From positions 180,716 through 244,715 of the IMG/VR virus record IMGVR_UViG_3300036766_002181: a stretch of DNA of 64,000 nucleotides, one strand, 5' to 3'. This DNA is from a virus. Positions 37,387 through 53,337 of the stretch are shown here, in pieces; position 1 is the stretch's first letter, and the number at the start of each line of letters is the position of its first letter. A model generated the notes under the pieces. It was not told the origin of the DNA, made no database searches, and was given only the letters and a program-made list of their open reading frames with translations. A program made the translations under genes and the position numbers.

Positions 37387-37414
37387 TTGTTTTTGAATTA
37401 GTTTAGATTATAAT
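37387..37414 (+). promoter_or_regulatory. sigma70-like promoter for amidoligase 1
   Basis: TTGTTT 37387-37392, 16-base spacer, TATAAT 37409-37414; the first usable ATG is at 37434. Confidence 0.65.
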
Positions 37415-37433
37415 GATATTCATCCAATCAAGG

Positions 37434-38591
37434 ATGCCAGGGAGAAACGACAAGATGCCAACCCTTCCGACCGCCGCCAGTGTTCGCCAGTGTTCGATTT
37501 GCCAGGTTATTGGCCACAACAGCCGCACCTGTCCTTCAGAGGCTGCCGTTGCTCTTCGTGGTGTCGTTCCTGCCGAGCTTGTTGCCTCAATCCGCTCTAA
37601 CCGTACCTTTGGCATCGAAGTCGAGTTTATCGGTTCCATGCAACGTGCTGCCGATGCCCTGAACCAGGCCGGGATTCCTTGCAGCGTCCAGGGCCACAAC
37701 CACTCGGTTTGTACGGCTTGGAAGGTCGTCACGGATGGTTCGGTGTCTGCCGGGGGTGAGCTTGTCTCCCCAATTCTCTCAGGCGCAGAAGGCCTTACAA
37801 CGGCTTACAAGGCCGTTCGTGCTCTTGCCGCCGCAGGTCTGTCGGCCAATCGTTCATGCGGCCTGCATGTTCATGTTGGGGCTGTCGATACGACTTCTGA
37901 GAAGCGTCTTTCGATTGCCCGGCGCTATGCCAAGTTTGAATCCCAGATTGATTCTTGGATGGCTCCTTCACGCCGGGCCAATGCCAGCCGATGGTGCCAG
38001 TCGATTATCGGTAGGACAGAGGGAACCAATCCTTCGATTCTTAATGATCGCTATTTCAAGGTCAACCTGACCGCCTTTAGCCGTCACCAGACCATTGAAT
38101 TCCGTCAGCATCAGGGTACGGTCAATGCCAAGAAGGTCTGCAACTGGGTCAAGTTCTGCGTGAACTTCGTGGAAGAGTCGCTTAATCGTTTGGTGTCTCC
38201 TGTCCAGCAGGAAACCCCTGTTTCGACCTGCCGTGTCGATAATGACATTCGTCTTACCCGCAGCCTTAACCGCATGGTTCAATACTTGGAGAGCCGTGGA
38301 ATTGCTTGCACCTCTGCGGACGTGCTTGCTCGTGACTGCAACGTTGGTTCCACGACGGTTGCGGTCATGATTTCTAACCTTCGCACCCGTTACGGCTACC
38401 AGATTTCACATCGTCGTGGCCAGGGCTACAGGCTGGTTAGCTCGCCTCTTGCTACTCGCCAGACGCTTGTCCCTGTCGTTGCTCCTGTTGCGCCCATGGC
38501 CGACGATTCCAGCCCCCTGGTTGGCCTGGACTTGGAGGCGACTCGCTTCTTCGCCGGCCGAGTGCAAGGCGTTGCAGTGACGGCAATTTAA
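37434..38591 (+). CDS. zinc knuckle-amidoligase-winged helix protein 1
   Basis: 385 residues (ATG 37455 also possible). A CCHC zinc knuckle (CSICQVIGHNSRTC, about 20-33) precedes an amidoligase_2-type domain: FGIEVEFIGS, GGELVSPILSG, CGLHVHVGA, IEFRQHQGTVNAKKVCNW. The last 100 residues hold a winged-helix-like segment (TTVAVMISNLRTRYGYQI, GQGYRLV). Amidoligases of the GCS/glutamine-synthetase-like fold join an amine to a carboxylate using ATP. GC-rich codon use contrasts with flanking PGxLY genes. Confidence 0.82.
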   Translation: MPGRNDKMPTLPTAASVRQCSICQVIGHNSRTCPSEAAVALRGVVPAELVASIRSNRTFGIEVEFIGSMQRAADALNQAGIPCSVQGHNHSVCTAWKVVTDGSVSAGGELVSPILSGAEGLTTAYKAVRALAAAGLSANRSCGLHVHVGAVDTTSEKRLSIARRYAKFESQIDSWMAPSRRANASRWCQSIIGRTEGTNPSILNDRYFKVNLTAFSRHQTIEFRQHQGTVNAKKVCNWVKFCVNFVEESLNRLVSPVQQETPVSTCRVDNDIRLTRSLNRMVQYLESRGIACTSADVLARDCNVGSTTVAVMISNLRTRYGYQISHRRGQGYRLVSSPLATRQTLVPVVAPVAPMADDSSPLVGLDLEATRFFAGRVQGVAVTAI

Positions 38592-38603
38592 CGAGAAGAA
38601 ACA

Positions 38604-38906
38604 ATGCCCATGGTGACAAATAAGAAAACAAGCAAACGTGCGAGAACGGAGCTTGTTAAGAAAGCAAGGCCAGGATCACCGTGGAAGGCAGCATGGCCTT
38701 TAAAGGTCTATGATGATAGCGAATCCAGCAAGTTCAAAACCTGCACCTTAAATGAAGGTGAAATTTTTATGATTATAGGTGTTCTAAACTTGCCAGGGAC
38801 ACAGGTACCGGCCTTGAAGATTCTTATACCAAAAACAGGCCAAATTTATTTAGACTGTTTTCGTAAAGATGAAATTATAGAGGTTTGCAGCAATGGCAAC
38901 AAGTAA
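38604..38906 (+). CDS. divergent PGxLY-family protein
   Basis: 100 residues: ARPGSPWKAAWPL, EIFMIIGVLN, ALKILIPKTGQIYLD. The motif reads PGSPW. Starts twelve bases after the amidoligase and overlaps the next gene by 14 bases. Confidence 0.65.
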   Translation: MPMVTNKKTSKRARTELVKKARPGSPWKAAWPLKVYDDSESSKFKTCTLNEGEIFMIIGVLNLPGTQVPALKILIPKTGQIYLDCFRKDEIIEVCSNGNK

Positions 38907-39156
38907 TAACAAGTTAATTCCAGGAGAATTATACAGATTAGATCCAGAATTTCATAGTAACCTGGAAGTACATTTTGAATTTCGTGTCTGTCCAGTTGAT
39001 CCTAGATCATATGAGGATTTTGTTCTTGGCTATATACTCTTGGATAGCGATATTCTTATGGCCCTATCTAGCATTGATGGAGGAATGTTTTTATATGAAG
39101 GCGAAAAAGTTAAAATCGGCGGCCAATGGCTGAATAGGCTTGAAAGAATCTCATGA
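38893..39156 (+). CDS. PGxLY-family small protein
   Basis: 87 residues: LIPGELYRLDPEF, DILMALSSIDG, MFLYEGEKVKIGG, LERIS. The LERIS ending is shared by the next gene. Confidence 0.85.
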   Translation: MATSNNKLIPGELYRLDPEFHSNLEVHFEFRVCPVDPRSYEDFVLGYILLDSDILMALSSIDGGMFLYEGEKVKIGGQWLNRLERIS

Positions 39157-39473
39157 CAAAGAAGCTCGTTATTAACGATTGGTATCTAGAGGAGGCCAAC
39201 AGACTTTTAGACATACTAAAGATAGGAAAGTTGTATTGCTATAAACCAAACGCCACAACAAGTGCTAATTCCCCATGGAATCCTCTTAACCCAGACGGCC
39301 TACCAACTTTGGGAATAATCTATTATCCTGTGGGACAAGAAATATTATTGTTGGTAAGATTTGTGGAGAAAAACTCCTGGATTAATAGAAGTTATCCCAT
39401 GTTTCTTCATAATGGCCAACTTTTTTATATTAGCGTTATCCACCAAAGTATGCTTGAAAGAATCTCGGCATGA
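39153..39473 (+). CDS. PGxLY-family small protein
   Basis: 106 residues: LKIGKLYCYKPN after a 20-residue helix, EILLLVRFVEK, PMFLHNGQLFYIS, MLERISA. Overlaps both neighbours by four bases. Confidence 0.83.
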   Translation: MTKKLVINDWYLEEANRLLDILKIGKLYCYKPNATTSANSPWNPLNPDGLPTLGIIYYPVGQEILLLVRFVEKNSWINRSYPMFLHNGQLFYISVIHQSMLERISA

Positions 39474-39493
39474 AAGATAGAAAAATAAGGTTA

Positions 39494-39757
39494 ATGAACA
39501 ATAACAAAATTGTTCCAGGAGAATTGTATTGTTATACTACTCTTGAAAATGACCAGGATTATTATGTTTGGCCCATCGATATACAATTCAAATTTAACAA
39601 GACCGCCTACTTTGGCGGATTTAAAGTTTCAAACAAAACAATTCTGTTGGCCTTGGCAATGCATATCGGCATATCCAGACTAAACGTATTTTTGTATCAG
39701 AATACAAAGGTTGTTACTAACCATTTTTATCAGGACCAACTTAAAAAGATTTCTTAA
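39494..39757 (+). CDS. PGxLY-family small protein
   Basis: 87 residues from ATG 39494 (a start at 39470 overlaps the previous stop): IVPGELYCYTTLE, TILLALAMHIG, NVFLYQNTKVV. Confidence 0.83.
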   Translation: MNNNKIVPGELYCYTTLENDQDYYVWPIDIQFKFNKTAYFGGFKVSNKTILLALAMHIGISRLNVFLYQNTKVVTNHFYQDQLKKIS

Positions 39758-39765
39758 CACTTAAA

Positions 39766-40044
39766 ATGTCAACAGCGCCATTATTATTGTCCAGCAAGAA
39801 CCCTATTCCAGGAAGTTTATATAGACTTGATAGACGCTATGATTATGCGCATTGCATTTATGTTTACAACCCAGCAACGAGAACGGCCAAGACTGAAACT
39901 TATCTCGATTATAAAGGGGCCGATTTTATTCTGCATATTTGCCATATTGGTAAACCATGGAATGAACTATGGTTATATAACAATCAATTGGTTGTATTGG
40001 TATTGTTTTGCGAACAGAAGCTAATCGAGGCTTCATGTCTATAA
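39766..40044 (+). CDS. PGxLY-family small protein
   Basis: 92 residues: PIPGSLYRLDRRY, DFILHICHIGK, LWLYNNQLVVLVL. Confidence 0.83.
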   Translation: MSTAPLLLSSKNPIPGSLYRLDRRYDYAHCIYVYNPATRTAKTETYLDYKGADFILHICHIGKPWNELWLYNNQLVVLVLFCEQKLIEASCL

Positions 40045-40271
40045 AACACAAAAATAGAGAAGGTACCATTTGGAGACTTATGCAAAGTCATAATCTTTAT
40101 TATTCACATGAAAGCGTGGTTGGGCAAATGGATGAGGCCTTTATTATTTTAAATAAATCAGTTTATTCTTCATATGAAGATAATATTTGGTGGCATGTCT
40201 ACTTGATAGAAAGCAAAAAAGTCGGAGAGATCTCAGAAAGAAGCCTGTTAATCGTCGGCAGAGAATTATAG
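40035..40271 (+). CDS. PGxLY-family small protein
   Basis: 78 residues from ATG 40035: NREGTIWRLMQSH, EAFIILNKSVY, VYLIESKKVGEI. Degenerate first motif (EGTIW). Confidence 0.72.
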   Translation: MSIKHKNREGTIWRLMQSHNLYYSHESVVGQMDEAFIILNKSVYSSYEDNIWWHVYLIESKKVGEISERSLLIVGREL

Positions 40272-40274
40272 ATT

Positions 40275-40517
40275 ATGATTTCTCCATGGTGGATTAGATT
40301 TGGCGGACTTTATGCTTTAAAACATTCTGGATATCTTCTAAAAGAAGAGGACGACAACACGTCTGCCCATGAAGCCTTTAAAGGGAAAACCATTTTTATT
40401 CCCTTGTGTGAATGGCCGCATCATCAACGATATATTTCTTGTTTTTGCTTATATAATGGGAAAAAATATCTGATAGACAGACTTTATTTTTATGATACTT
40501 TTCATTTTATCTCCTAA
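40275..40517 (+). CDS. PGxLY-family small protein
   Basis: 80 residues: RFGGLYALKHSG, KTIFIPLCEWP, FCLYNGKKYLIDR. Last gene of the rightward run; meets the tail-chaperone gene tail to tail. Confidence 0.78.
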   Translation: MISPWWIRFGGLYALKHSGYLLKEEDDNTSAHEAFKGKTIFIPLCEWPHHQRYISCFCLYNGKKYLIDRLYFYDTFHFIS

Positions 40518-40710
40518 GCTTTGGTGGAGCAAAAACATGGTGCTTTCCTAGCATTGCCCTTAATGAAGGATCATTGTGATGCGCCGCATGGGTAGGAACA
40601 TCTGAATTGCCGCCCCCCTGTTCCTGGCTCTTCTTAATCTCGTCGTTAAGACGCTTCATCGTCCAACGTCTATAGGCAATCGGGAAGTTATAATAGGTTT
40701 CCCAAGACAT
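40507..40710 (-). CDS. tail chaperone 3' part (frameshift extension) or separate small protein
   Basis: 67 residues from ATG 40710 (ETYYNFPIAYRRWTMKRLND). The frame is open upstream to 40777, into the end of the gp26-like gene, and encodes EPFFNLAYYFG just before the ATG, so it continues a protein rather than starting one. In tail assembly chaperones this kind of W/R-rich segment is added by ribosomal frameshift. Confidence 0.65.
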   Translation of the reverse strand: MSWETYYNFPIAYRRWTMKRLNDEIKKSQEQGGGNSDVPTHAAHHNDPSLRAMLGKHHVFAPPKLRR

Positions 40711-40759
40711 TCCAAAATAATATGCCAGATTAAAGAATGGTTCTAAAAGAATCTCTTCT

Positions 40760-41671
40760 CTATGCTCGTTTTTTAGGCCAAAAGAAATCCGAAGACATTG
40801 GCAATTGGATCTTTTCGGAATGATCGCAACTTGCGCAAATGAATTCTACCTCCATGTCTACGCCTGGCTCATTGGCGTCAATATATTCTCTAAGAGCCCG
40901 GCTATCCTGGGCCCTTAGATAATTAACAAACTTTGCAACATGACCCGGACTTGAGTTTCCATTAACAGAAAGAATTTGCGAAGAAAGGCGAGTTGTAACA
41001 ATGTTTGTGTTGGCCTGGCCTCTCTTTCTTTTTGTTTCAAGTTCCTTAATAATCTTTTCTTCTTCCTCGCCGGTTAAAAACTTAAATTCAACTCTTAGCT
41101 TTGAAACAGGTAAATCAAAACCAAAGACATTCTGTCCTGGAACAGACGGCTCAAGTTCTAGTGGTTTGACCGCAAGGTTTGCAAGATCAATATTCATTTC
41201 ATTCTTGTGCTCGCACTGAGGGCAGTCAAAGGTTGGCTGATATTCTCTGCCATAGCCTGAAATTCTTATACCGACCATTAGGGCATTTCTATCTCCTGAA
41301 AGAAGAGATGAAACGTTAATGCTTTTATCAATTAGACTTGACTTAATAAGTTCTGTAATAACCGTGCCCTTTTTAATAAGGCCCTGACTCATAAGAATGT
41401 CTTCTTCTCGGGCTGTCATTGCCCTATACTCAACCTGCGCAGCACCATGCAAAGGATGACCTTCAGGATATACCTTGCCGGACGAGGGAAGCGGAACCGC
41501 ATCTACAGGAATATCAAAGCCAAACTCTTTTTTGGCATAGTCTTCTCTTGAAACCGAAGCCATTCCTCCACCACCAGATAGGGCAGAAAATACTTCATTT
41601 CCTTTTCTTACCTCTGTTGCTGCTGTGGTCTGTTGTTCGCTATCTTGTTGTTCTGAGGATGATGATGCCAT
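40760..41671 (-). CDS. T4 gp26-like baseplate/tail assembly protein
   Basis: 303 residues. A Ser/Gln/Gly-rich start (1-45) leads to LPSSGKVYPEGHPLHGAAQV (62-81) and ISGYGREYQPTFDCPQC (137-153); a second pair, CASC (279-282), completes a four-cysteine zinc site. This pattern fits the T4 baseplate hub gp26-type family. It ends FFWPKKRA just at an A6 slippery run, where a +1 (or -2) shift would join it to the gene at 40507-40710. Long helices around 205-215 (EEEEKIIKELETKRKRG) are charged. Confidence 0.78.
   Translation of the reverse strand: MASSSSEQQDSEQQTTAATEVRKGNEVFSALSGGGGMASVSREDYAKKEFGFDIPVDAVPLPSSGKVYPEGHPLHGAAQVEYRAMTAREEDILMSQGLIKKGTVITELIKSSLIDKSINVSSLLSGDRNALMVGIRISGYGREYQPTFDCPQCEHKNEMNIDLANLAVKPLELEPSVPGQNVFGFDLPVSKLRVEFKFLTGEEEEKIIKELETKRKRGQANTNIVTTRLSSQILSVNGNSSPGHVAKFVNYLRAQDSRALREYIDANEPGVDMEVEFICASCDHSEKIQLPMSSDFFWPKKRA
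40769..40774 (-). promoter_or_regulatory. candidate programmed frameshift site
   Basis: CCT AAA AAA CGA GCA TAG: a +1 slip on AAA continues as AAC GAG CAT AGA with no stop through to 40507. Confidence 0.6.
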
Positions 41672-41779
41672 AGTTCTTTTACTTTAATCCTTACTGCTAT
41701 TTTATCTCTCTGCAAAAGATATGTATAGCAAGCCCTAGGTTTTGAGTTTGCCCACAAAAGAATAAGAGTAATATTCTGA

Positions 41780-42391
41780 TTATTTTTTGTAATGTTGCTG
41801 AAAAACTTCACGAGAAAGACCATAATCAACAAGGACGGCAAACTGCCTACCATTTCTTGTGACTTTACCCCAGGAGCTTAATCTATCAAGATCTCCTGGT
41901 TGCTGACCAAAATCCCTTATAAAGGAAACCATCTTTTCTAACAAGGGAGAATCATAAATTTCTCTAGCAAGACCAGGATCAACAGACATGGTAGGTCTTT
42001 TGCTAATTTCGTTAATTAAAACAGAACCAAAGGTATCAAAATCAAAGCCGGTTAATTTCCTAAAATCTGCCTTTGTTATTTTGTCGGCCCGCTCAACCTC
42101 TAGCCAAAAGTAGTTTTCCTGATCATAGGCCTTTACCATGGCAATGATTTCTGAATAACCAGAAGACAAATCAGATATTTCTGCCTCAACCTCATTCTGG
42201 GCAAGTCCCTTTTTGTTTTTGGCCAGCTTCAAAACAGAAATGCCTCCATCGCCGGAACTGTCGTCTTTAACGGGAAATACAACCCTTGCACTTCCTGCAC
42301 CAAGCTTGCTTCCAAGTTGTTTGGTTGCATATTCGACCCTTGCCCTAAAAGAGGGCAATTGCTTAAAGTGCTCTAAATCCCAGGGTATCAT
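41780..42391 (-). CDS. protein kinase-fold-like phage protein
   Basis: 203 residues. GAGSARVVF (31-39) resembles a glycine-rich loop, VLKLAKNKKGLAQNEVEAE the strand-3 lysine and helix C, and VDYGL near the C-terminus a DFG-like site. The HRD catalytic loop is not evident, so it may be a pseudokinase or a remote relative. Found next to virion genes; substrate unknown. Confidence 0.62.
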   Translation of the reverse strand: MIPWDLEHFKQLPSFRARVEYATKQLGSKLGAGSARVVFPVKDDSSGDGGISVLKLAKNKKGLAQNEVEAEISDLSSGYSEIIAMVKAYDQENYFWLEVERADKITKADFRKLTGFDFDTFGSVLINEISKRPTMSVDPGLAREIYDSPLLEKMVSFIRDFGQQPGDLDRLSSWGKVTRNGRQFAVLVDYGLSREVFQQHYKK

Positions 42392-42424
42392 ATGGCCAGA
42401 TATCCTTAACTATACCCAATAATT

Positions 42425-42430
42425 TATAAT
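42425..42430 (+). promoter_or_regulatory. -10 box of a putative sRNA/leader
   Basis: TATAAT with no good -35 box; the predicted start falls in the 5' arm of the structured element. Confidence 0.4.
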
Positions 42431-42431
42431 C

Positions 42432-42574
42432 GATTTGAGGCCCTTTCTGAGTTGTCTGTGTCCTGATGGCCGTCAGGAATACCAAGGGCTCAGAACGGCT
42501 CCCAGAGGCCTTGGAGGGGCAAGGTTTAAGGCTCTTGTCTCGACAGTAGAAGGTTTGTTTTGGTCCCTCAAATC
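42432..42574 (+). ncRNA. structured RNA element (sRNA or amidase leader)
   Basis: A 9-bp perfect terminal stem, GATTTGAGG (42432-42440) with CCTCAAATC (42566-42574), closes 143 bases. Inside, TTCTGAG pairs with CTCAGAA around the hairpin TCCTGA/TCAGGA, CCAAGG can pair with CCTTGG, and TGTC/GACA forms a further small hairpin. No ORF covers it. A single long rod-like RNA with hairpins is reminiscent of 6S-like RNAs or of a cis leader for the endolysin gene 25 bases downstream. Confidence 0.6.
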
Positions 42575-42598
42575 AAAGGAGAAAAGGAGTCACTATTT

Positions 42599-43303
42599 AT
42601 GATTAATCATATTATGAAAATAATAAATTATAAACTTTATAATGACGACGATTCTGCGGTGCAGTTTATAAACAGTCCAAATCAGTCTGTTGGAATTGCC
42701 CACAAATATCTCATAATGCATTACACCGCAGCCAATTCGTTAAATGGAGCAATTCAAACTCTTACGAACAAGGCAGCCAAGGCATCTGCTCATCTTATTA
42801 TAGATAAAGATGGAAAGACCGTGCAGCTTGTTGACTTTAATCACAAGGCCTGGCACGCCGGATCGTCTACCTGGAAAGATTTGGTTGGCATGAATGCCTA
42901 TAGCCTTGGTATAGAGTTGGTTAACTCTGGCCCTCTTCGTCAAGATCAATCGGGCCAGTTTAAAACATGGTATGGAGAGGTCATTCCAAAGGACCAGGTT
43001 CAAATGGTAGAATTTAAAGGAAAAATATCTGCCTGGCAAGAGTATCCAGAGGCACAGTTAATGAAAGCCATAGAAATTGGACATCTATTGTTTGAAGAAT
43101 ATAAGCTTATTGATGTTTTGGCACATTCGGATATTGCACCCAACCGAAAACAAGACACAGGCCCTGCCTTTCCCATGGACTCTTTTCGTTCTAAAATGTT
43201 GGGTAGAGAGTCAGACACTCTTGATACTGGCCCCATTACGCACATAGAGGTTCCAAAATTTGTTTATTGGCAACAACAACCATCACCATCGCCAATAAAG
43301 TAA
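42599..43303 (+). CDS. N-acetylmuramoyl-L-alanine amidase (endolysin)
   Basis: 234 residues from ATG 42599, behind AAGGAG at about 42575-42580 and AAAAGGAG at 42581-42588. Amidase_2/AmpD fold: LIMHYTA (first zinc His), AHLIIDKDGKTVQLVD, KAWHAG, YSLGIELVN and VLAHSDIAPNRKQDTGP (second His and Lys/Asp site). It cleaves the peptide from MurNAc in peptidoglycan. No signal peptide or cell-wall domain is seen, so a holin is needed. Confidence 0.85.
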   Translation: MINHIMKIINYKLYNDDDSAVQFINSPNQSVGIAHKYLIMHYTAANSLNGAIQTLTNKAAKASAHLIIDKDGKTVQLVDFNHKAWHAGSSTWKDLVGMNAYSLGIELVNSGPLRQDQSGQFKTWYGEVIPKDQVQMVEFKGKISAWQEYPEAQLMKAIEIGHLLFEEYKLIDVLAHSDIAPNRKQDTGPAFPMDSFRSKMLGRESDTLDTGPITHIEVPKFVYWQQQPSPSPIK

Positions 43304-43323
43304 TAAGATAAGAAGGCACCAAA

Positions 43324-43593
43324 ATGAAAATAACAAAACAAGAATTAAAGCGATTAATCAAAGAAGAATTTTTAAAGGAAGCGCCAAAAAAATCAAAAAA
43401 GCTAAAACCAATTGCTTGGGTAAGTTATAAAATACATATTCCTGTTTATTTGCACGAACTTCCTCCTGGAGCCGATCCACGGGACGCTTTAGACGAATCT
43501 ATCGAAAATGCGGCAGAAGAAAAATTAAAAGTTGCTTGCCCAAATATCAAAAGTCAATTTGATCTTGAATATGAAGAAACACACCAGAGATAA
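43324..43593 (+). CDS. KITKQELK-tagged small protein
   Basis: 89 residues: the tag MKITKQELKRLIKEEFLKE, then a beta-alpha domain (PIAWVSYKIHIPVYLHE). Next gene has nearly the same tag. Both follow the endolysin. Confidence 0.65.
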   Translation: MKITKQELKRLIKEEFLKEAPKKSKKLKPIAWVSYKIHIPVYLHELPPGADPRDALDESIENAAEEKLKVACPNIKSQFDLEYEETHQR

Positions 43594-43598
43594 ACAAC

Positions 43599-44060
43599 AT
43601 GAAAATAACAAAACAAGAACTTAAGAAGATTATAAGAGAAGCGTTGGCTGAAGAAAAGATTCCTTTTGGTGGATCCATAAGTGCAGATCTCAGCAATGCA
43701 GAACAGCAGGCAAGACAATCTCCACACTACAACAAGTGGAAAAGAGAATATGTTAAAGCCAGAAAGACTCAGAATATAACAAATTCAATAAAGGCAGCAA
43801 ATAAGGTTCTTAACATGAGTGAGGGCATCGGCATAAGTCACAAAGCAAAAGAATTGTCAGAGCACCGCACCGATGCCGAACGAGACGAGGATAGAGGAGA
43901 ATCGGTTGCAACTGTAGAAGAATTTAAAAAAATCTTAAAGCATCTAAGAGACAATAATGCAGGCAATTTCTCTGATTATTCCATCGGCTATAAGAGGGCA
44001 ATCGAAGATGTGGCAGAAGCATTTATGCCGTGGGACAGAGGAAATTTTCTTGAAGAATAA
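43599..44060 (+). CDS. KITKQELK-tagged hypothetical protein
   Basis: 153 residues: tag MKITKQELKKIIREALAEE, then polar helices. The tag is shared with 2635-2943 and 43324-43593 while the bodies differ, so the tag is a portable element. Confidence 0.65.
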   Translation: MKITKQELKKIIREALAEEKIPFGGSISADLSNAEQQARQSPHYNKWKREYVKARKTQNITNSIKAANKVLNMSEGIGISHKAKELSEHRTDAERDEDRGESVATVEEFKKILKHLRDNNAGNFSDYSIGYKRAIEDVAEAFMPWDRGNFLEE

Positions 44061-44068
44061 TATAACCC

Positions 44069-44389
44069 ATGGCCATCTCTCTAGCGTCTCTTATAACTCC
44101 TGAAATAAAATCCCTTATTGAACAAGGAAAATCCAGGCACGTAGAGATTTATCTTACCACTTCTTTTGAAAGCAACAACAAGTGGTATATTCATTATCCT
44201 GAAAGAGAATTTGGACATGCAGGAGAATCAGATACCTATGGTCCTTTTGATTCTGAGGAGTTGGCAAGGAACTTTTTAAGAGAAAGATTTGCCGTTGGCA
44301 ATTTTAAGAAAGTAATTATAGATAATTCAGGACAAAGAGAAGTGCCAAAAAGAAGTCCAAGTGGAAAGAGAATAGAGAGAGGAGTTTAA
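44069..44389 (+). CDS. hypothetical protein
   Basis: 106 residues with a small alpha/beta fold (HVEIYLTTSFESNNKWYIHY, TYGPFDSEELARNFLRERF) and a basic tail. No family recognised. Confidence 0.6.
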   Translation: MAISLASLITPEIKSLIEQGKSRHVEIYLTTSFESNNKWYIHYPEREFGHAGESDTYGPFDSEELARNFLRERFAVGNFKKVIIDNSGQREVPKRSPSGKRIERGV

Positions 44390-44393
44390 TGGT

Positions 44394-44738
44394 ATGATAA
44401 AATTAAGCAAAAATACAAAGGTAACCCTTTCTCTTGAAACCATTATAAGTCTGGCCGTGACCATCGTTATGGGTGCCAGTCTTTATTATAATATGGCCAC
44501 GAAGGATTATGTTGACAATAGAATTAAGGATGCAACAGAACAGAGAATAGAAAAAATTGAATCAAAGGCAGATTCAACAAATGAACAAATACATAAAATT
44601 GACACAGCAATTGAACTTCTTTCCAAGTCTGTAAGCAACCACGACAAGAACATGGAAGCCTTTACGACGGCCCTAGAGAAGCTCAGAGACTCTTTGGTGT
44701 CTTCCTCTTCTGGCCGCCGATCTTCCGGCGATCGTTAA
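44394..44738 (+). CDS. single-helix membrane protein with coiled coil, possible holin/spanin
   Basis: 114 residues: one N-terminal membrane helix (TIISLAVTIVMGASLYYNMA) and a long coiled coil (EQRIEKIESKADSTNEQIHK). Place near the endolysin suggests a lysis role, but hole formation is not shown. Overlaps the convergent gene at its 3' end. Confidence 0.6.
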   Translation: MIKLSKNTKVTLSLETIISLAVTIVMGASLYYNMATKDYVDNRIKDATEQRIEKIESKADSTNEQIHKIDTAIELLSKSVSNHDKNMEAFTTALEKLRDSLVSSSSGRRSSGDR

Positions 44739-45192: not shown

Positions 45193-45196
45193 GTTA

Positions 45197-45646: not shown

Positions 45647-45696
45647 AATATCTATAAATAGGCTTCTACTTAATCGTTTAGAACGATTGCATTTGT

Positions 45697-46671
45697 GTGC
45701 AAAACAATAAACGAAAAAAGTATGTCCTTGCCTCTGTTGCTATAACGGCCTTTTATCTTATTTTTGCATTTGCCTCTTATATTTATAACTCCGTTACTTC
45801 TGACAATCTTGGCATTAGTACAATCGTACAACAATCATCGCCGGGCTCTCACATAAAATCAGGCACGCCAACAACCATTAAGGTTTTAACCTTTAATGTT
45901 CACGGGCTACCAAACACCAAGGATGTTTCTTGTGATAATCTTATTAAGATTGGTCTGGCCCTAAGAGATCTAAGAAAAAAGAATCTTGCACCAGACATAG
46001 TTGCAATTCAAGAAGGCTTTCACATAAAGACCAGAAAATTAATCGAGCTTTCTGGCTATCCCTATGCAATGGAAGGACCAACAGGAGACAAGGGAGAAGT
46101 CGTTTCGGGTTTATGGATTTTAAGTGAATATCCTATCGTTCTAAATAAAACAAGCATTTTCAATGTTTGCATTTCCTGGGATTGTTTGGTAAACAAGGGA
46201 ATTCAACTTGCTGCAATAAAACTATCTGGCGATATTGAACTACAAATTTTTAATACTCACATGAATTCCTTTCCTGACTCAGACCCAATTACTTCTAGAA
46301 AGGCAACAGTGGGGATAAAAGAAAATCAAATAAATCAATTTTTTAGCTGGTTTGCTTCTACGATAAATGACAAATTGCCGGCAATTGTTTTAGGAGATTT
46401 TAATTTTAAGGCAAGGGATCCGCTTTATAGAAAATTTGAAGGGTTAATTTCAAAACACGTTCCAATAAACAACGTCTTTGAAGAATTTCTGGGAAAAACC
46501 TTAAAGGCTGTACCAGGAACAGTGGATCATCAGTTTTTAATTAAAACTAAGAATACAAATGTTAAACTTGTGCCAGTTCGTTATGAAAGAATGTTTACAG
46601 ATAGAACAATGTCAGATCATAGAGGCGTACTTGTCGAGTATAGGATTATCAAAGTTCTTCAAAATATGTAA
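45697..46671 (+). CDS. membrane-anchored EEP-family phosphodiesterase/nuclease
   Basis: 324 residues from GTG 45697. An N-terminal membrane helix (YVLASVAITAFYLIFAFASY) precedes an endonuclease/exonuclease/phosphatase domain: LTFNVHGLP, VAIQEG (metal Glu), FNTHMNS, VLGDFNFKA and SDHRGVLVEY (final His-Asp). Family members include DNase I-like nucleases, sphingomyelinase-like and phosphoinositide phosphatases. The membrane anchor and periplasm-facing orientation suggest action on membrane lipid head groups or on incoming DNA; which one is open. Confidence 0.78.
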   Translation: MQNNKRKKYVLASVAITAFYLIFAFASYIYNSVTSDNLGISTIVQQSSPGSHIKSGTPTTIKVLTFNVHGLPNTKDVSCDNLIKIGLALRDLRKKNLAPDIVAIQEGFHIKTRKLIELSGYPYAMEGPTGDKGEVVSGLWILSEYPIVLNKTSIFNVCISWDCLVNKGIQLAAIKLSGDIELQIFNTHMNSFPDSDPITSRKATVGIKENQINQFFSWFASTINDKLPAIVLGDFNFKARDPLYRKFEGLISKHVPINNVFEEFLGKTLKAVPGTVDHQFLIKTKNTNVKLVPVRYERMFTDRTMSDHRGVLVEYRIIKVLQNM

Positions 46672-46960
46672 CGATAAATCTTGTGTGATAAAAGTCGTCA
46701 GGAAGATTTTTTCCGCCTTCTATCGTAGATACGGTTCCATGGCCCTTTCGACCGTGCTTTAAATAAGAAACAACTATAATGGCACCTTCTTTTTTTGCCT
46801 TCTCAAAGTTTTTATGAGGCCTTAAATCAAAAGTCTTGGGCCAATCCTGCACTAAAGGATAAAAAACGTATTCTAAAAACATCACAATGGCAGAAGACCT
46901 GTCTTCTTCATAGTTTATTCTTACCAGAGATCCAGGTTCTAACTCTCTTATATTTAACAC
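46649..46960 (-). CDS. PGxLY-family small protein
   Basis: 103 residues: LEPGSLVRINYEE, SAIVMFLEYVFYPL close behind, then GAIIVVSYLKHGR and FIVTYFEEL. Order of the later strands is altered compared with most copies. Confidence 0.7.
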   Translation of the reverse strand: MLNIRELEPGSLVRINYEEDRSSAIVMFLEYVFYPLVQDWPKTFDLRPHKNFEKAKKEGAIIVVSYLKHGRKGHGTVSTIEGGKNLPDDFYHTRFIVTYFEEL

Positions 46961-46986
46961 TTATTTAAAGAATAAATATGAATAAA

Positions 46987-47511
46987 CTATTTGTTATTTT
47001 CATTTGAAGAACTGTTATTTTCAATTTTTGAATAGGACTGATGAAAGTATTCACAAATAACAGATTCAGGAGTAAAATACCAAATCTTGTCCTGAAAGAG
47101 CATTTTTGCTCTTTGTCTTTTCTTCTTAATTTCTTCGTCTGTAAATGTTTCTATGCCAAGAAACATTACGATGCTTCGGGGCTCAATCTTACAGCGAACG
47201 TGGTTTGCAGTCCAAATAGTATTTTCTTTTATTGCTCTATATAAGGTACCTGGCAACCCAAAGATTTCTTTATGAGCATTTGAAAAGAAGCGTCTTCTTT
47301 TCTTCTTTTCTTTCTTTATAAGAATTGGTCTACGTCTTTTCAGACCACCACTGGAAGAACTATTGGCAGCTACAAGTCTTTCCCAGGTATAGTTTAGGTT
47401 TTCCTTGTTCGGAAAATAATCAACATTTTCTTTATGAAGACTATCCTTGCTGGCACTAATAGTGGGATTGGCCCTGTTGTTGCTGTTGCTTGATTTTTTT
47501 ATCATTGCCAT
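46987..47511 (-). CDS. PGxLY-family protein with long basic N-terminal extension
   Basis: 174 residues: about 85 Asn/Ser- and Lys/Arg-rich residues, then FGLPGTLYRAIKEN, SIVMFLGIETF, KMLFQDKIWYFT and a polar tail. Confidence 0.75.
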   Translation of the reverse strand: MAMIKKSSNSNNRANPTISASKDSLHKENVDYFPNKENLNYTWERLVAANSSSSGGLKRRRPILIKKEKKKRRRFFSNAHKEIFGLPGTLYRAIKENTIWTANHVRCKIEPRSIVMFLGIETFTDEEIKKKRQRAKMLFQDKIWYFTPESVICEYFHQSYSKIENNSSSNENNK

Positions 47512-47554
47512 AGCAATTTACACCAATTTGATGTTAAATTAAACCAAATTTATG

Positions 47555-47704
47555 TTATTGGGCTTCTTCTGCTGTGGCCGCCTGTTTCTTTTTTCTTTTT
47601 CTGCGTTCATTGCAAAGTTTACAATTTTCTTTTGGCTCACACCAGAACTCTTCTTCCTCAAAGGGCTCGTCAATGGTTTTTAGATGTTTCCAGTTGGGCG
47701 ACAT
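47555..47704 (-). CDS. 49-residue CxxC protein
   Basis: Acidic first half, then FWCEPKENCKLCNERRKRKK, with three cysteines (one CxxC) that could bind zinc, and a basic tail. Lies between a PGxLY gene and amidoligase 2. Confidence 0.5.
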   Translation of the reverse strand: MSPNWKHLKTIDEPFEEEEFWCEPKENCKLCNERRKRKKKQAATAEEAQ

Positions 47705-47722
47705 AAAAATGTTTTTTCTTGC

Positions 47723-49402
47723 TTATGTCAATCGAGCCAATCGGGCACGCTCTGTTCGACAAGAAAAACAATTGCAGGGCAGATCATTTACACCCACAAC
47801 ACTTGCCTCAATATTACTAATATCATTATTTAGGTTTCTATCGGCCCTAATAGACAGGTTGGTTTGAGCCATGTTCGGCACGGTGGTATTGATATAAACG
47901 CTAGGAGAGGCAACAGGCGGTCTTGCTCGGCCTGGCCGACGAAATAGCTCGGGCGGGGGAATAAATCCAAAATTCATGCCATCTTCTCCATTGTCGGGAG
48001 GAGCAAGAGGAGGAGGAGGAGGAGGAGGAGGAGGAGGATCGACATAGTTTATAGTAATGCCACTTGCCGGACGATTCATAGGAGCGGCAACTTCGCCGGC
48101 AGCGACAAGGGAGTTAACTCGATCATTGCTGTTTAGTTCTAGATCTTCATTATCAAAGTCTGGGGAAGGAGCATCAGGCGATTCTCTCTGATTTCCTCGT
48201 GCAAGAGAGGCAAGCATTCTACGATTATAAAAGTCTGCCGAGTCAGAATCTAGGCCTCTCCAATATCTGTCTGACTCGGCAGTAATGGCAAGACCTTCGG
48301 TATCAGTACCTGTTGTGGCCAGTGCAACAGGTACTGTTGCAACTTGGCCCCTTCTTCTACGAGGAGGTCTAGGAATATATGGAACTGCCGGCAGCATCAT
48401 ATTGCCAAATCTATAGACATAGTATTCTCTGTTCCTGTATCTTGCCTCAATATCAAATCCAAACTGATTGACAAGCCTTTTTATCGTAGTAATAAGCACA
48501 CGAGAAGACATGCCTGTAGTTGTCGAGGCTCTTTGAATGTTGAGTAAGACGTGTCCTCTGGGTGGACAATGGTGGTAGTATGTGTTCATTGTTAGAGCAG
48601 AAGGCCTTCTGCTCGGAGGAAGCTGGCTGTTATCTTCTTGTTCAATATCAAGACAATATTGAATAAGTTTGTTAAAGTTTTGCATTCCTCTTGTGCCAAT
48701 TGGATAAAATGGCGTAACATAGGTGTCTCTGCCACGCCTTCTCTGTGCCCTCTCGGCACCTGTAAAGGGAAACTCTTCTGTATAAAGCGAACAATTTTTG
48801 CCGGCCTCGACAAAGTTAACACAAAACTTAATCCAGTTAGAAATCTTTTTAATGTTCAGGGTTCCATGATGGTGTCGAAATTCAATTGTCCTGTGTCTCT
48901 GATAGGCGGCAAGATTAATCTTAAAATAACGATTATTATAAATGTTAGAATTTCTAATAGGAGAGAGAGATCTACAATAGGTGTTTAATTCTCCTCTTCT
49001 TGAGGGAGCCATAAGATTGTCAATTTGAGATTCAAAGTGTCCATAACGCCGGGCAATGTTTAGGCGTTCGATGGGAGACAGATCTCCTGCGTCTACGTGA
49101 ACATGTAGACCACAGGTAGAATTAACTCTTGCTCCTGCTGCCACAAGGGCCGCAACGGCAATTTTAACCTGCTCTAGACCAGCCTCGCCGGACAGGGGAG
49201 GAGAAACAAGCTCTCCACCATGGCCATTGTTGCTTCTAACCGAACCATCTGTGGTAATTTTCCAGGTCGTAGAGGTTCGATGATTATAGTCCTGAACGTC
49301 ACAAAAAATATTTCTGGCATTTAAGGCCTCTGCCGCCGTGTGTAGAGAAATCCAGGTAAATTCAATTTCTACACCAAATCTTCGGTCGCTAGCAATTGCC
49401 AT
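47723..49402 (-). CDS. amidoligase-winged helix protein 2, long form
   Basis: 559 residues. Amidoligase_2-type motifs start at the N-terminus: FGVEIEFTW, GGELVSPPLSG, CGLHVHVDA, PSRRGE, IEFRHHHGTLNIKKISNW. The N-terminal zinc knuckle of the other two is missing; instead CNCFSC lies near the C-terminus. A winged-helix-like region (ASTTTGMSSRVLITTIKRLV) is followed by a 200-residue disordered part with a run of ten prolines from a (GGA)n-type microsatellite at about 48003-48037. Confidence 0.8.
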   Translation of the reverse strand: MAIASDRRFGVEIEFTWISLHTAAEALNARNIFCDVQDYNHRTSTTWKITTDGSVRSNNGHGGELVSPPLSGEAGLEQVKIAVAALVAAGARVNSTCGLHVHVDAGDLSPIERLNIARRYGHFESQIDNLMAPSRRGELNTYCRSLSPIRNSNIYNNRYFKINLAAYQRHRTIEFRHHHGTLNIKKISNWIKFCVNFVEAGKNCSLYTEEFPFTGAERAQRRRGRDTYVTPFYPIGTRGMQNFNKLIQYCLDIEQEDNSQLPPSRRPSALTMNTYYHHCPPRGHVLLNIQRASTTTGMSSRVLITTIKRLVNQFGFDIEARYRNREYYVYRFGNMMLPAVPYIPRPPRRRRGQVATVPVALATTGTDTEGLAITAESDRYWRGLDSDSADFYNRRMLASLARGNQRESPDAPSPDFDNEDLELNSNDRVNSLVAAGEVAAPMNRPASGITINYVDPPPPPPPPPPLAPPDNGEDGMNFGFIPPPELFRRPGRARPPVASPSVYINTTVPNMAQTNLSIRADRNLNNDISNIEASVVGVNDLPCNCFSCRTERARLARLT

Positions 49403-49520
49403 GAATGAAATATTCCTTTGTTGTGGGACTTTGTTTATTGTGGTGGAATTTCTAGATTATTGCAATAGGAAATGAATTTCTCATAAAAGATATATTCTTT
49501 TTATTTCAGACTTTTCAGAT

Positions 49521-49739
49521 TTATGCCAAATTCCGCTGTGTCAAGTTTGTGTATTGAAGAAATTTAAGCTGAATTACGGTTCTGTCTAAATTAACAAGTC
49601 TTTTTTCTTTTATTGAATATGCTGTAAAGAAATTGCCTTGGCGACTAGAGCTCATGCATACAAAATAGTAGGGTCTTAATGGTTTGCGGTCTGTTTTTGC
49701 GAGACTAAATAAGTCACCAATTTTGGGAAATTCAAGCAT
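49521..49739 (-). CDS. small protein of the divergent GDL subgroup
   Basis: 72 residues: PKIGDLFSLAKTD, PYYFVCMSS, FFTAYSIKEKRLVNL. Shares the order of strands with the PGxLY family but with IGDL in place of PGxL. Groups with the three genes that follow upstream. Confidence 0.65.
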   Translation of the reverse strand: MLEFPKIGDLFSLAKTDRKPLRPYYFVCMSSSRQGNFFTAYSIKEKRLVNLDRTVIQLKFLQYTNLTQRNLA

Positions 49740-49947
49740 AAATTGTCATAGTATTGAGATATTCTGGGCTCATAATCAGATATTTATGAGTTTGCAGTGA
49801 GTATACCTGAAACCAAATTGCTCCGTTGGAGTTTTTAATAGGTTTTAAAAATAGAAAATAAAACAATCTACCTCGAAACTCTCTGAAAAATATATTTCCA
49901 GACACCAAATTATTGGCCACTTCCCATAAGTCAATAGAATTAGACAT
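49732..49947 (-). CDS. small protein of the divergent GDL subgroup
   Basis: 71 residues: VSGNIFFREFRGR, FYFLFLKPI, WFQVYSLQTHKYLIMSPEY. The VYSLxxxK element recurs in its neighbours (AYSIKEK, VYSLEEK). Confidence 0.65.
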   Translation of the reverse strand: MSNSIDLWEVANNLVSGNIFFREFRGRLFYFLFLKPIKNSNGAIWFQVYSLQTHKYLIMSPEYLNTMTIYA

Positions 49948-49954
49948 TTTATCT

Positions 49955-50131
49955 TTAGAATGGGAGTGTTAAGTTTTGAAGATTGTGCCAACTTGTTTCT
50001 CCTAAAACATAGACGGCTTTTTCTTCTAACGAATATACAAAAAACCAAAATTCTGCATATGGACCCAAGTATATCATGTGCCGGCCGTTTTGATCTATCA
50101 ACAAATCTCCAGCGTTTACCGATTTAGACAT
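49955..50131 (-). CDS. small protein of the divergent GDL subgroup
   Basis: 58 residues from ATG 50131: VNAGDLLIDQNG, MIYLGPYAEFWFFVYSLEEKAVYV. Confidence 0.62.
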   Translation of the reverse strand: MSKSVNAGDLLIDQNGRHMIYLGPYAEFWFFVYSLEEKAVYVLGETSWHNLQNLTLPF

Positions 50132-50138
50132 CTTTCTT

Positions 50139-50378
50139 TTAATCTGGCGAAGAAATAACCTCAAAATTATCAAGATGTTCCATTAGAAAAAATCTGGTTG
50201 CATTGGATCTGCACGAATAGGCTGAGAAATAATCTAGGTCACTTGAGGTATGAGAAATATATATAAAGATTCCTTGTGTCCATTTAAATCCCCCAAGATA
50301 AGAGTTTTTATTAATCTGAATTAAATCTCCCTTTCTAGGCGGGCATTCACTAAGAGGAAGTACATTCTGAATGGCCAT
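50139..50378 (-). CDS. small protein of the divergent GDL subgroup
   Basis: 79 residues from ATG 50378: PRKGDLIQINKNS, GIFIYISHTS, YFSAYSCRSNATRFF. Confidence 0.65.
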   Translation of the reverse strand: MAIQNVLPLSECPPRKGDLIQINKNSYLGGFKWTQGIFIYISHTSSDLDYFSAYSCRSNATRFFLMEHLDNFEVISSPD

Positions 50379-50662
50379 CACAGTTTTTGAAATTCTAGAA
50401 TATGATTAACTGAAACAAAAGTAAACTTCTTCTCAGAAACGTGCAGGGCAACCATAAAGGTGTTGGTAATATACAGACACATAAATATACCACGATATTC
50501 AACGTATTTATCAAGCCAAGAATCTTTATGCAATTTAAACAGGCATCCCGGCTTAAAGGACTTGATGTGACATTGCTGATTGACCACCTCGTTCATACTC
50601 GCAAGCTTTGGGTTGTGGGGCCAGGAAGTATTTGTCCAGGCAGATGGATTGTTACCAGTCAC
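50378..50662 (-). CDS. PGxLY-family small protein, intermediate form
   Basis: 94 residues: FKPGCLFKLHKDS, GIFMCLYITN, VALHVSEKKFTFVSV. It has the classical PGxL motif but the IFMxxYI centre of the GDL subgroup, which links the two. Confidence 0.7.
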   Translation of the reverse strand: MTGNNPSAWTNTSWPHNPKLASMNEVVNQQCHIKSFKPGCLFKLHKDSWLDKYVEYRGIFMCLYITNTFMVALHVSEKKFTFVSVNHILEFQKL

Positions 50663-50852
50663 ATTCTTTTTCTCTTTCTCTCTGCCGCCTTATGCGTCTA
50701 CGCTCTTCGTGCTTATGCTTTTTGTGTTGCATGCGCTCATATTTGTTTGGAGGGACAGGCGAACCTTCATCAGAAGAGGAAGACGCTTCTTCTTCGCCGC
50801 CCTCTTCGTCGTCGGTGCCTTCAAAGAAAAAGAATTTATTTGAAAAAGTCAT
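50652..50852 (-). CDS. acidic-basic low-complexity protein
   Basis: 66 residues: FFFFEGTDDEEGG, acidic and Ser-rich middle, Arg/Glu/Lys-rich end. Overlaps the next gene by eleven bases. Real but uninformative. Confidence 0.5.
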   Translation of the reverse strand: MTFSNKFFFFEGTDDEEGGEEEASSSSDEGSPVPPNKYERMQHKKHKHEERRRIRRQREREKECDW

Positions 50853-51011
50853 TTTATGACCTATTTTTTTGAGGGAGAGAGTGAGGGAGATTAACAGTAA
50901 TAGACAGAATCGGAAATAAGTCGCACGTCACGCATGAAATATTCTGCGCCCATCCAAAGTATAGACAAATCAAATAGAATTTGCATTTTGTAGATGTTTT
51001 CCCTTTATTTG

Positions 51012-51254
51012 TTACGGAGCGGTTGGAGTCTTATACTTTCCATCTGGAAAACGTTCCTTGTCTCCCATTGGTTTTCGTGCAACCTTTTGTTTAAGGCCGT
51101 GGGCTCCATGACTGCCGCCTGTGCTTCTCTGAAGCAGCTTGCTGATGGTTCTTCCGCCCTGATTGCCAGCACAAGAACACGAGCGCAAGACTCGCTTGCA
51201 CCAATCACACCATGGAATTTTCTCGGTCTTTGTTGCTACTACAATATCGCCCAT
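51012..51254 (-). CDS. small CxxC protein
   Basis: 80 residues: PWCDWCKRVLRSCSCAG holds four cysteines in a tight cluster, followed by a Gly/Arg/Lys-rich tail (KPMGDKERFPDGKYKTP). A zinc-binding, possibly nucleic-acid-binding peptide. Confidence 0.55.
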   Translation of the reverse strand: MGDIVVATKTEKIPWCDWCKRVLRSCSCAGNQGGRTISKLLQRSTGGSHGAHGLKQKVARKPMGDKERFPDGKYKTPTAP

Positions 51255-51322
51255 TTTAGAATCCTCTGCTTTCCAGTTCTTTCAAAGTGTTAAGTATAAT
51301 ATCGCATATTTTTTTACAAATG

Positions 51323-51598
51323 TCAATAAGAAATCAATTCAAAAAAATACATAAAATCCTCTTTTATAACAACATTGCCAAAATATTTCTTATTATCTTT
51401 TGGACAATACAAAAGAAAGCCCTTTAGATCCTTTGTCGTTTCAATACAAACAAATTTTTCGCCAGCCTCAAAGTGCCTATAAACCGTTATAGCAGGATTT
51501 GGCTTTAGAGAATCACTCTGCCAAAATCCTGTACAGCCTATTAGTTTAATCAGGGATCCTGGCTTAAGACCTCTATTATCTTGAATGGTCACAGACAA
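51323..51598 (-). CDS. PGxLY-family small protein
   Basis: 91 residues: LKPGSLIKLIGCTG, EKFVCIETTK, GFLLYCPKDNKKYFG. Sister of the next gene (GFxLYCPKxNKKYxx, GEKFxx). Confidence 0.75.
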   Translation of the reverse strand: MSVTIQDNRGLKPGSLIKLIGCTGFWQSDSLKPNPAITVYRHFEAGEKFVCIETTKDLKGFLLYCPKDNKKYFGNVVIKEDFMYFFELISY

Positions 51599-51849
51599 GA
51601 AAAGACCCTGAAAAACCTATCGATCCGCGCATAATATTTTTTGTTAGTTTTGGGGCAGTATAGAATAAAGCCGCGCTTATCTATACCCTTGTTATTTGCA
51701 AGTAAAATAAATTTTTCGCCTGATTTAAAATTCTCGCAAGTGGGAAAATTAAAATTTGTTAACGGATCTTCCAGCCAAAATCCTGCATCTTGATTTAAAC
51801 AAATCAGGCTTCCTTCTTGTGCCGAATTTCTATTCTTTAGCATTTGCAT
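51589..51849 (-). CDS. PGxLY-family small protein
   Basis: 86 residues: AQEGSLICLNQDAG, EKFILLANNKG, GFILYCPKTNKKYYAR. Overlaps its sister by ten bases. Confidence 0.75.
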   Translation of the reverse strand: MQMLKNRNSAQEGSLICLNQDAGFWLEDPLTNFNFPTCENFKSGEKFILLANNKGIDKRGFILYCPKTNKKYYARIDRFFRVFSCL

Positions 51850-51919
51850 TTTCTATTTAATTTCTTTGGCGGACATCGATCCTTGGTAACGATAGCAGAC
51901 ACCTTTCTTTCGCTCTTTT

Positions 51920-53134
51920 TTATGTTCTTTCCGCAGCAGCACCCCGACGAGAAGCAAAGGCAGTTACCCTTCGAGCAAACCATCCAACTGTGGGAGCATC
52001 AAGGCCGATATAGGGATTATCGTTTTCACGAGCGACAAGAACGGGCGCTTGATCAAGTCTCCTGCGCCCATCCAGTTCCAGGACAGCATAATGGCTGCCA
52101 CCACGAGCATAAACAGAGGAAGGTGTAGTGTTTTCAGGCAAAACCAGCACACGATAACCCTGAAGTCGAGAAGTAATTCTATAGCCATGGACATGGCGAA
52201 GCCTAGAAACCATCGTGGAAATTGTCGTGGGCGCAAGACCCATGCTTCTGGCTGCGCGCTGCAATCCCATACCAGGGAAATTTTGAAGATTTTCAACAAG
52301 TTCGGTCATACGACCTTCTGTCGCAGGCCATTGATTATGACCAACATTATTTGAAACTGCCGGCACTTCAATGGCGGCGATATTTCCACTCCCTCCGCTC
52401 AGAGTTTCCTCTACAAAGTTAACACAAAACTTAATCCAGTTGCAAACCTTTCGAGCATTCACGGTTCCCTGGTGGTGCCGAAACTCTACGGTTCCATGCC
52501 GCTCAAAGGCAGAAATGTTAACCTTATAATATCGTTCATGGCGAAGACTTTCCATGCTGGCTCCACGATTGGAGCAACAAAAATAATTTTCGCTGCTACG
52601 GCGAGAGGGAGCAACAACCCGATCAATCTCGGCTTCAAGCTGTCCGTACCTATGGGCAATGGCATATCTTTGTTGGGGTGTAGAATTACGCATATCAACA
52701 TGGACATGCAGGCCACAGGAACGGTTGGCAGACATACCAGCAGTACGCATTGCCTTTAAAGCCCTATAGGCAGTTCTAAGCCCCTCTGAACCTGAAAGAA
52801 TGGGAGATACAAGTTCTCCACCAGCAGACACAGAGCCGTCTGTAACCACTCGCCAAGACCTTGAGACGCCATGGCCATATCCTTGGGTGTTGCAAGGAAT
52901 GCCAGCACGAGAAACAGCCCGTGCAGCAGATGCCATGGAACCAATAAATTCAATTTCAACACCAAAGCTACGATTTGAACGAATGGTGTTGAGATATTCA
53001 GGAAACTCAAGGTTACCAAGGGCCGCAGTTGCCTGGGGACAGGTGCGAGAGTTATGACCAGGTTCATGACAGGTTCCACAGTTGACCTGTCTGCGCGAGG
53101 ATCGTCGTGATTGGCGTCTAATGGCGGCTGGCAT
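51920..53134 (-). CDS. zinc knuckle-amidoligase-winged helix protein 3
   Basis: 404 residues, the closest paralog of the protein at 37434. CCHC knuckle CGTCHEPGHNSRTC (20-33); amidoligase motifs FGVEIEFIGS, GGELVSPILSG, CGLHVHVDM, VEFRHHQGTVNARKVCNW; winged-helix-like LAPTTISTMVSRLRHVHGYR ... LQGYRVL; a short C-terminal region. GC-rich codon use as in copy 1. Its own promoter lies at 53158-53185. Confidence 0.83.
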   Translation of the reverse strand: MPAAIRRQSRRSSRRQVNCGTCHEPGHNSRTCPQATAALGNLEFPEYLNTIRSNRSFGVEIEFIGSMASAARAVSRAGIPCNTQGYGHGVSRSWRVVTDGSVSAGGELVSPILSGSEGLRTAYRALKAMRTAGMSANRSCGLHVHVDMRNSTPQQRYAIAHRYGQLEAEIDRVVAPSRRSSENYFCCSNRGASMESLRHERYYKVNISAFERHGTVEFRHHQGTVNARKVCNWIKFCVNFVEETLSGGSGNIAAIEVPAVSNNVGHNQWPATEGRMTELVENLQNFPGMGLQRAARSMGLAPTTISTMVSRLRHVHGYRITSRLQGYRVLVLPENTTPSSVYARGGSHYAVLELDGRRRLDQAPVLVARENDNPYIGLDAPTVGWFARRVTAFASRRGAAAERT

Positions 53135-53327: not shown

Positions 53328-53330
53328 GAT
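53302..53330 (+). promoter_or_regulatory. promoter of the NAD salvage module, leaderless type
   Basis: TTGACT 53302-53307, 17-base spacer, TAAGAT 53325-53330 (or TATAAG 53323-53328). ATG at 53338. Confidence 0.7.
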
Positions 53331-53337
53331 GGTAAAT

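Follow-up and report, generated by a model that had tools for sequence, protein, structure and literature searches.

A phage with three amidoligases fused to predicted winged helices, two of them also to a zinc-knuckle motif: a tentative case for reversible amide tagging at nucleic acid

The stretch of DNA considered here (the window) is the last 64 kb, positions 180716-244715, of the linear, 244,715-base virus record IMGVR_UViG_3300036766_002181. The phage is tailed and encodes a T4-type baseplate hub protein along with an N-acetylmuramoyl-L-alanine amidase lysin. The window carries three amidoligase genes, two of whose products begin with a zinc-knuckle motif, and the record also holds the two enzymes that accompany amidoligases in other phages, a class II glutamine amidotransferase (GATase) and a gamma-glutamyl cyclotransferase. 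The reading favoured here, tentatively and at somewhat less than an even chance, is that these form a three-writer version of the known phage toolkit, which reversibly amide-tags a substrate held on nucleic acid. From the observed domains, conserved residues, partner enzymes and their linkage in relatives, we infer a reaction, its reversibility, a substrate and its tethering, as follows. Each amidoligase would form an ATP-dependent amide bond between an amine and a carboxyl group, most probably one of the gamma-glutamyl type. The target would be a protein or peptide held at the nucleic acid through the winged helix of the enzyme, and copies 1 and 3 would additionally hold nucleic acid via a knuckle of the single-strand- or RNA-binding type. 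The cyclotransferase would take the tag off as 5-oxoproline, and the N-terminal nucleophile (Ntn) GATase would either provide ammonia or cleave an amide. This would be one chemistry with different addresses: copies 1 and 3 would be directed by knuckle and winged helix, copy 2 by its winged helix and a long Pro-rich tail. The ligase genes and their parts, each an open reading frame (ORF) or a segment of one, are as follows.

37413..38591, forward strand: amidoligase copy 1 (knuckle, core, winged helix, C-terminal helix); ORF, PF12224 E 1.9e-30
37491..37532, forward strand: putative CX2CX4HX4C zinc knuckle of copy 1; motif count and PDB matches of a 26-residue query
37599..38180, forward strand: amidoligase core of copy 1; PF12224 profile, conserved residues
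38262..38441, forward strand: predicted winged helix of copy 1; DUF3489 profile iterated after removal of the C-terminal helix, weak HTH_36 match (0.058)
47723..49402, reverse strand: amidoligase copy 2 (no knuckle; winged helix, Pro-rich tail, C-terminal CxCx2C); ORF, PF12224
47759..47776, reverse strand: C-terminal cysteines C543, C545 and C548 of copy 2; sequence
48404..48694, reverse strand: winged helix of copy 2; modelled helix-strand-helix-helix-strand-strand order, match of the full C-terminus profile
48785..49387, reverse strand: amidoligase core of copy 2; PF12224 profile, conserved residues, model
51920..53134, reverse strand: amidoligase copy 3 (knuckle, core, winged helix, C-terminal helix); ORF, PF12224
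52142..52321, reverse strand: winged helix of copy 3; model, profile E 1.4e-4 before inclusion
52397..52975, reverse strand: amidoligase core of copy 3, predicted glutamine-synthetase fold; model with predicted local distance difference test (pLDDT) >93 in most blocks, Z 12.8
53039..53080, reverse strand: putative CX2CX4HX4C zinc knuckle of copy 3; motif count

An earlier, sequence-only reading of this DNA had proposed three amidoligases at these places, and all three ORFs indeed exceed the Pfam cut-off of 22 bits for PF12224 (Amidoligase_2), scoring 107, 130 and 95.5 bits for copies 1, 2 and 3, respectively. No fourth PF12224 amidoligase was found in the whole record. The ORFs encode 559 residues in copy 2, 404 in copy 3 and 392 in copy 1, the last counted from the first ATG. 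Further ATGs lie at 37434 and 37455, the latter preceded by GGGAGA, and the true start of copy 1 may be 37455 instead of 37413; the knuckle is downstream of all three.

Residue conservation was followed in 78 aligned amidoligase representatives. Eighteen columns are invariant in 78/78 of these relatives, and all are kept in the three copies, including residues of the metal- and ATP-site type (GxExE, D, E, HxH, R..N, ExR). A lack of conserved ATP or metal residues had been named as what would refute the sequence-only reading; the acidic, His and Arg residues are invariant and present in every copy, and the refutation fails. Structure prediction, which the sequence-only reading had put forward as a check, points to a glutamine-synthetase-like fold for the two copies modelled. 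Glutamine synthetases were the best structural matches of both; against glutamine synthetase, the copy 3 model gave Z 12.8 with a root-mean-square deviation (rmsd) of 5.5 over 238 aligned, and copy 2 gave Z 12.7, rmsd 3.1 and 178 aligned; these searches used whole domains and are uninformative on the winged helix alone. In the PDB, no sequence was matched at E 1 by a profile of the 78 amidoligases. Used as single-protein queries against viral contigs, copies 3 and 2 gave no relative, but alignments did. Among the matches of the amidoligase model in BFVD, at rank 43, is a phage protein from outside the window (A0A6J7X2B6) that is named for a LIM (zinc) domain and is perhaps another zinc-module fusion.

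The intact residues bear on the idea that these proteins are transcription regulators retaining a catalytically idle, glutamine-synthetase-like sensor domain. A winged helix fused to a ligand-binding-type domain would suit such a role, and host glutamine synthetase also acts in regulation; nevertheless, an idle domain would tend to lose the catalytic-type residues that all three copies keep, and this explanation is judged very unlikely. The fold neighbours in the PDB, which also include the gamma-glutamylmethylamide synthetase GmaS and YbdK, favour a different product, namely a small gamma-glutamyl or amide metabolite such as a conjugate of a polyamine or an amino acid; the nucleic-acid modules would then act in localisation or regulation. 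This agrees with the activity of the cyclotransferase family, whose substrates are small gamma-glutamyl amines. However, the Z-values cannot tell GmaS from ordinary glutamine synthetase, and three paralogues with different flanking modules would point to differing targets and away from a single small product. A metabolite is therefore regarded as improbable, though less so than a regulator.

The knuckle is the unusual part of these enzymes. The heading of the sequence-only reading had joined all three ligases to zinc knuckles; this holds for copies 1 and 3, where an N-terminal CX2CX4HX4C with Gly before the His is present, and fails for copy 2, which lacks the motif. As had been noticed, copy 2 carries instead a Pro-rich tail and three C-terminal cysteines, which by themselves could not complete a zinc site. 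The motif was counted in 23,490 six-frame ORFs (2.46 million residues, from the window, two other stretches of the record and 222 relative loci). It occurs three times, and its GH version exactly twice, in copies 1 and 3, which argues against chance. Among the amidoligase ORFs, 230 from 223 loci (the window and its 222 relatives, near-identical copies retained), the knuckle is found in two, again copies 1 and 3 only. When the 26-residue query from copy 1 was compared with the PDB, the best matches were the knuckles of TUT4/TUT7 and of a nucleocapsid protein (E 0.002-0.02), followed by a 5'-3' exoribonuclease, AIR2 and LIN28 (E up to about 0.5). These are RNA- or single-strand-binding proteins. 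The Pfam model zf-CCHC_6 gave 13.2 bits for copy 1, under its cut-off of 22, and no match for copy 3. The first 40 residues of the copy 3 model are of low confidence, and the assignment thus comes from sequence alone; binding of zinc and nucleic acid by copies 1 and 3 is predicted on this basis. The nucleocapsid, TUT4/7 and LIN28 knuckles share CX2CX4HX4C with GH with copy 1, but the match is short (E 0.002 or weaker), and the likeness is likely convergent, or too short to tell.

The winged helices named in the sequence-only reading were recovered by modelling in copies 3 and 2 and by profile evidence in copies 3 and 1. In the copy 3 model, helices at residues 272-285, 291-298 and 302-314 are followed by strands at 318-323 and 326-331, and copy 2 shows a similar order over residues 237-333; both models thus have three helices and then a beta wing. 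The relative L019 has a Pfam-positive DUF3489 (PF11994) winged helix at the corresponding place (E 1.6e-15), whereas Pfam DUF3489 itself is not reported in copies 1, 2 or 3. Iteration from L019 after removal of the C-terminal helix gave a profile that reached copy 3 (E 1.4e-4 before its inclusion) and subsequently copy 1; copy 2 was matched only when the full C-terminus was used, and a reversed-sequence control gave no match. All three copies have a predicted C-terminal winged helix, from profiles in copy 1 and least firmly shown in copy 2.

Such modules are by no means confined to this phage. Among the 78 representatives, Pfam finds DUF3489 in 11/78, PaaX in three and other helix-turn-helix (HTH) models in a few. 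Two N-terminal HTH-like families account for 70 and 11 of the amidoligase ORFs; together with 17 winged helices, and with the lists non-overlapping, about 98 of the 230 ORFs carry an HTH-like or winged helix, and a DNA-binding-type module is therefore common in the amidoligase family. The fusion of nucleic-acid modules to ligases is real and recurring, as had been claimed, but it is not exceptional, and only the knuckle appears to be new.

Two substrates had been suggested from these modules: one bound to nucleic acid, or a base of the phage DNA. The first is a reasonable supposition, as module fusions of such kind recur in the family. The second, hypermodification of phage DNA bases through amide bond formation, could appeal to the DNA-binding domains of the enzyme, and amino-acid-bearing thymines exist in other phages. 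The record, which may be incomplete, has no match to the thymidylate-synthase-superfamily hydroxymethylase PF00303 or to the 5-hydroxymethyluracil DNA kinase helical domain PF18723. The search covered the 5-hydroxymethyl-pyrimidine route and not others such as 7-deazaguanine; the suggestion found no support and is taken as the least probable of all the explanations considered.

In the tree of the 78 representatives, the three copies form one clade (support 98/89, the bootstrap being not fully settled), within which copies 1 and 3 group together (100/99); the neighbours of the clade are L065, L099, L114, L127 and L159. Duplication within this phage lineage is the simplest reading of the tree. 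Copy number was further counted in 50 whole virus or phage records, picked from 150 viral and phage loci and mostly long contigs, and all 50 have one amidoligase gene each, reported as two pieces in three of them. A 9,982-base contig filed as Omnitrophota (L226), which is possibly viral, has three separate amidoligase ORFs, two in tandem; at L040, L224 and L231, the multiple pieces seem to come from one split gene each. L226 shows that triplication is no unique trait, and several amidoligase copies are merely rare.

The partner enzymes lie apart from the ligases:

12593..13519, forward strand: class II glutamine amidotransferase (Ntn) domain protein of the amidoligase-linked type; held-out profile, catalytic residues
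176202-176543 of the record, 4.2 kb left of the window: GGACT gamma-glutamyl cyclotransferase; PF06094, phrog_2520

That a GATase-like protein at 12.6 kb may belong to the pathway was a guess that has gained support. It matched a profile of 28 GATases encoded beside amidoligases in other phages and genomes, built without it, at E 5.8e-21 (75.5 bits), and Cys2, H66-x-R68, N101-G102 and D115, invariant in 20 aligned, are in place; against Pfam GATase_4 it scored 18.4 bits, under the cut-off of 23. The cyclotransferase, which escaped the sequence-only reading because it is outside the window and is the sole one in the record, is part of a 367-residue ORF with an acidic tail and scored 65.2 bits against PF06094 (cut-off 22.8) and E 2.2e-20 against a held-out profile of amidoligase-linked relatives. 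Amidoligases, GATase and cyclotransferase are scattered across about 58 kb and do not form one operon. Every member of the known phage toolkit is thus present here, though the genes are dispersed and the ligases number three.

The genes are closely linked in relatives. With the first GATase profile, 40/40 GATases lay <1 kb downstream of an amidoligase on the same strand, the 1-kb flanks being 13.8% of the searched flank. A wider GATase alignment matches 17/50 whole records, and PF06094 is found in 30/50; the cyclotransferase is <1 kb from the amidoligase in 21 of these 30, versus 1.9 expected at random. At the 222 other loci, where counts are limited to the flanks at hand, a GATase was found at 48, a cyclotransferase at 36 and either at 68.

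A winged helix together with a single-strand-type knuckle on an intact ligase is best fitted by a substrate held on nucleic acid, and the modules being real and recurring, a substrate near nucleic acid is reasonably supposed. Several points weigh against this. The GATase is 24 kb from the ligases and the cyclotransferase is outside the window, so that the partners do not adjoin, and 154 of the 222 other loci have neither partner in the flanks at hand, so that at many loci the set is either partial or beyond these flanks. Pfam support for the two N-terminal HTH-like families is weak (best E 0.0003), and their profiles gave nothing convincing against the PDB: for one (A6), the best match was a repeat protein at 0.0012, and for the other (A7), it was BurrH repeats and a CAP repeat, Cre and LexA reaching about 0.2-1. 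The winged helices could serve autoregulation only, though comparing the upstream regions of the three ligase genes gave no usable common operator: they share four 8-mers (two motifs and their complements) and no 9-mer, while 100 mononucleotide shuffles gave 0.36 shared 8-mers on average and 4 at most. Lastly, passages of PMC5498523 and PMC10580990 assign such cassettes to the cell wall.

That proposal, made for podovirus cassettes with amidoligase, cyclotransferase and GATase, is the chief rival to tagging at nucleic acid. Here, the ligases would alter peptidoglycan side chains as a cell-wall or surface modification against superinfection, the cyclotransferase and GATase would recycle them, and the HTH or winged helix would only repress the gene of the ligase itself. 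As described in PMC5498523, the RIO-1/phiEco32-type 'peptidoglycan modification cassette', which may prevent superinfection, has these three enzymes as here, but also a second amidoligase family, PF14395, and a RimK-type ATP-grasp. The record has no match to COOH-NH2_lig PF14395 or to RimK PF08443, the ATP-grasp family searched, and the podovirus wall cassette was consequently rejected as the identity of this system. A nucleocapsid-type zinc knuckle would also be hard to explain on a wall enzyme, and no usable operator common to the three upstream regions was found. The wall explanation is considered unlikely, but the strongest of the alternatives.

For tagging at nucleic acid, a more specific form can be stated, in which three writers with different address domains mark DNA- or single-strand-bound proteins with a gamma-glutamyl-type tag and one cyclotransferase erases it; this form is doubtful. 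If true, a large share of the phage amidoligases now ascribed to the cell wall would modify nucleoid, transcription or RNA-bound proteins. Many phages encode PF12224 enzymes, and a DNA-binding-type module in about 98/230 relatives, with a knuckle added to the triplicated set, points to a nucleic-acid-bound substrate.

Other genes were also observed nearby. Directly beside amidoligase copy 3 (window 53302-56735) are an NrtR-like NUDIX/winged-helix protein, a nicotinamide phosphoribosyltransferase and a nucleotidyltransferase-like protein, a gene group for the salvage or rebuilding of NAD+. The N-terminal motif of a family of at least 31 small paralogous ORFs, most of them of 80-140 residues, is (I/V)PG(S/E/N)LY (30 in window 6125-47511; one at L017 11081-11398), some of them near copies 1 and 2; none of the 222 other loci has one, and three that were scanned against PHROG gave no match. 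Three otherwise dissimilar ORFs (window 43324-43593 and 43599-44060; L017 5715-6455) share the N-terminus MKITK(E/Q)xL followed by LI(R/K)E-type residues. Window 45697-46671 encodes an endonuclease/exonuclease/phosphatase-family protein with a hydrophobic N-terminal stretch, possibly secreted or membrane-bound, and a DNA polymerase III alpha-like ORF (L017 222-4793) is split by an intein-like insert with an HNH endonuclease match.

The joint occurrence of amidoligase, GATase and cyclotransferase in phages is already known. In the passages drawn on, cyclotransferase and amidoligase are listed as atypical Arthrobacter phage genes (PMC5513430), amidoligase and GATase in LUZ24-like phages (PMC3890496, PMC3517423), and amidoligase and cyclotransferase in Clostridium prophages (PMC11318856). 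The amidoligase role is cited in PMC10580990 as wall modification or secondary metabolites, with functions that remain to be explored, and the literature passages hold only proposals (cell wall, metabolites) and no experiment on amidoligase function. Neither the knuckle fusion, nor three ligases with differing address domains, nor DNA-binding fusions on this scale were met in searches of open-licence PMC papers, a set that did not include the founding amidoligase paper of 2009.

The enzyme families of Arthrobacter phage Kovu (genes 96-98), Ottawa, phage C75C1 and Geobacillus phage GR1 are the same as here, and the GATase half of the C75C1 GATase-cyclotransferase fusion aligns with the window GATase (31% over 137 columns, E 4e-15). 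In those phages, the genes are adjacent or near, with one ligase per genome and no knuckle, whereas here they are scattered and the ligases are three. The amidoligase-DUF3489 fusions of other phages and of Defluviicoccus/Desulfovibrio contigs (L019, L021, L161, L163) have core, winged helix and C-terminal helix ordered as here; they are without the zinc knuckle, and the L019 record is single-copy, compared with the three copies of the present phage.

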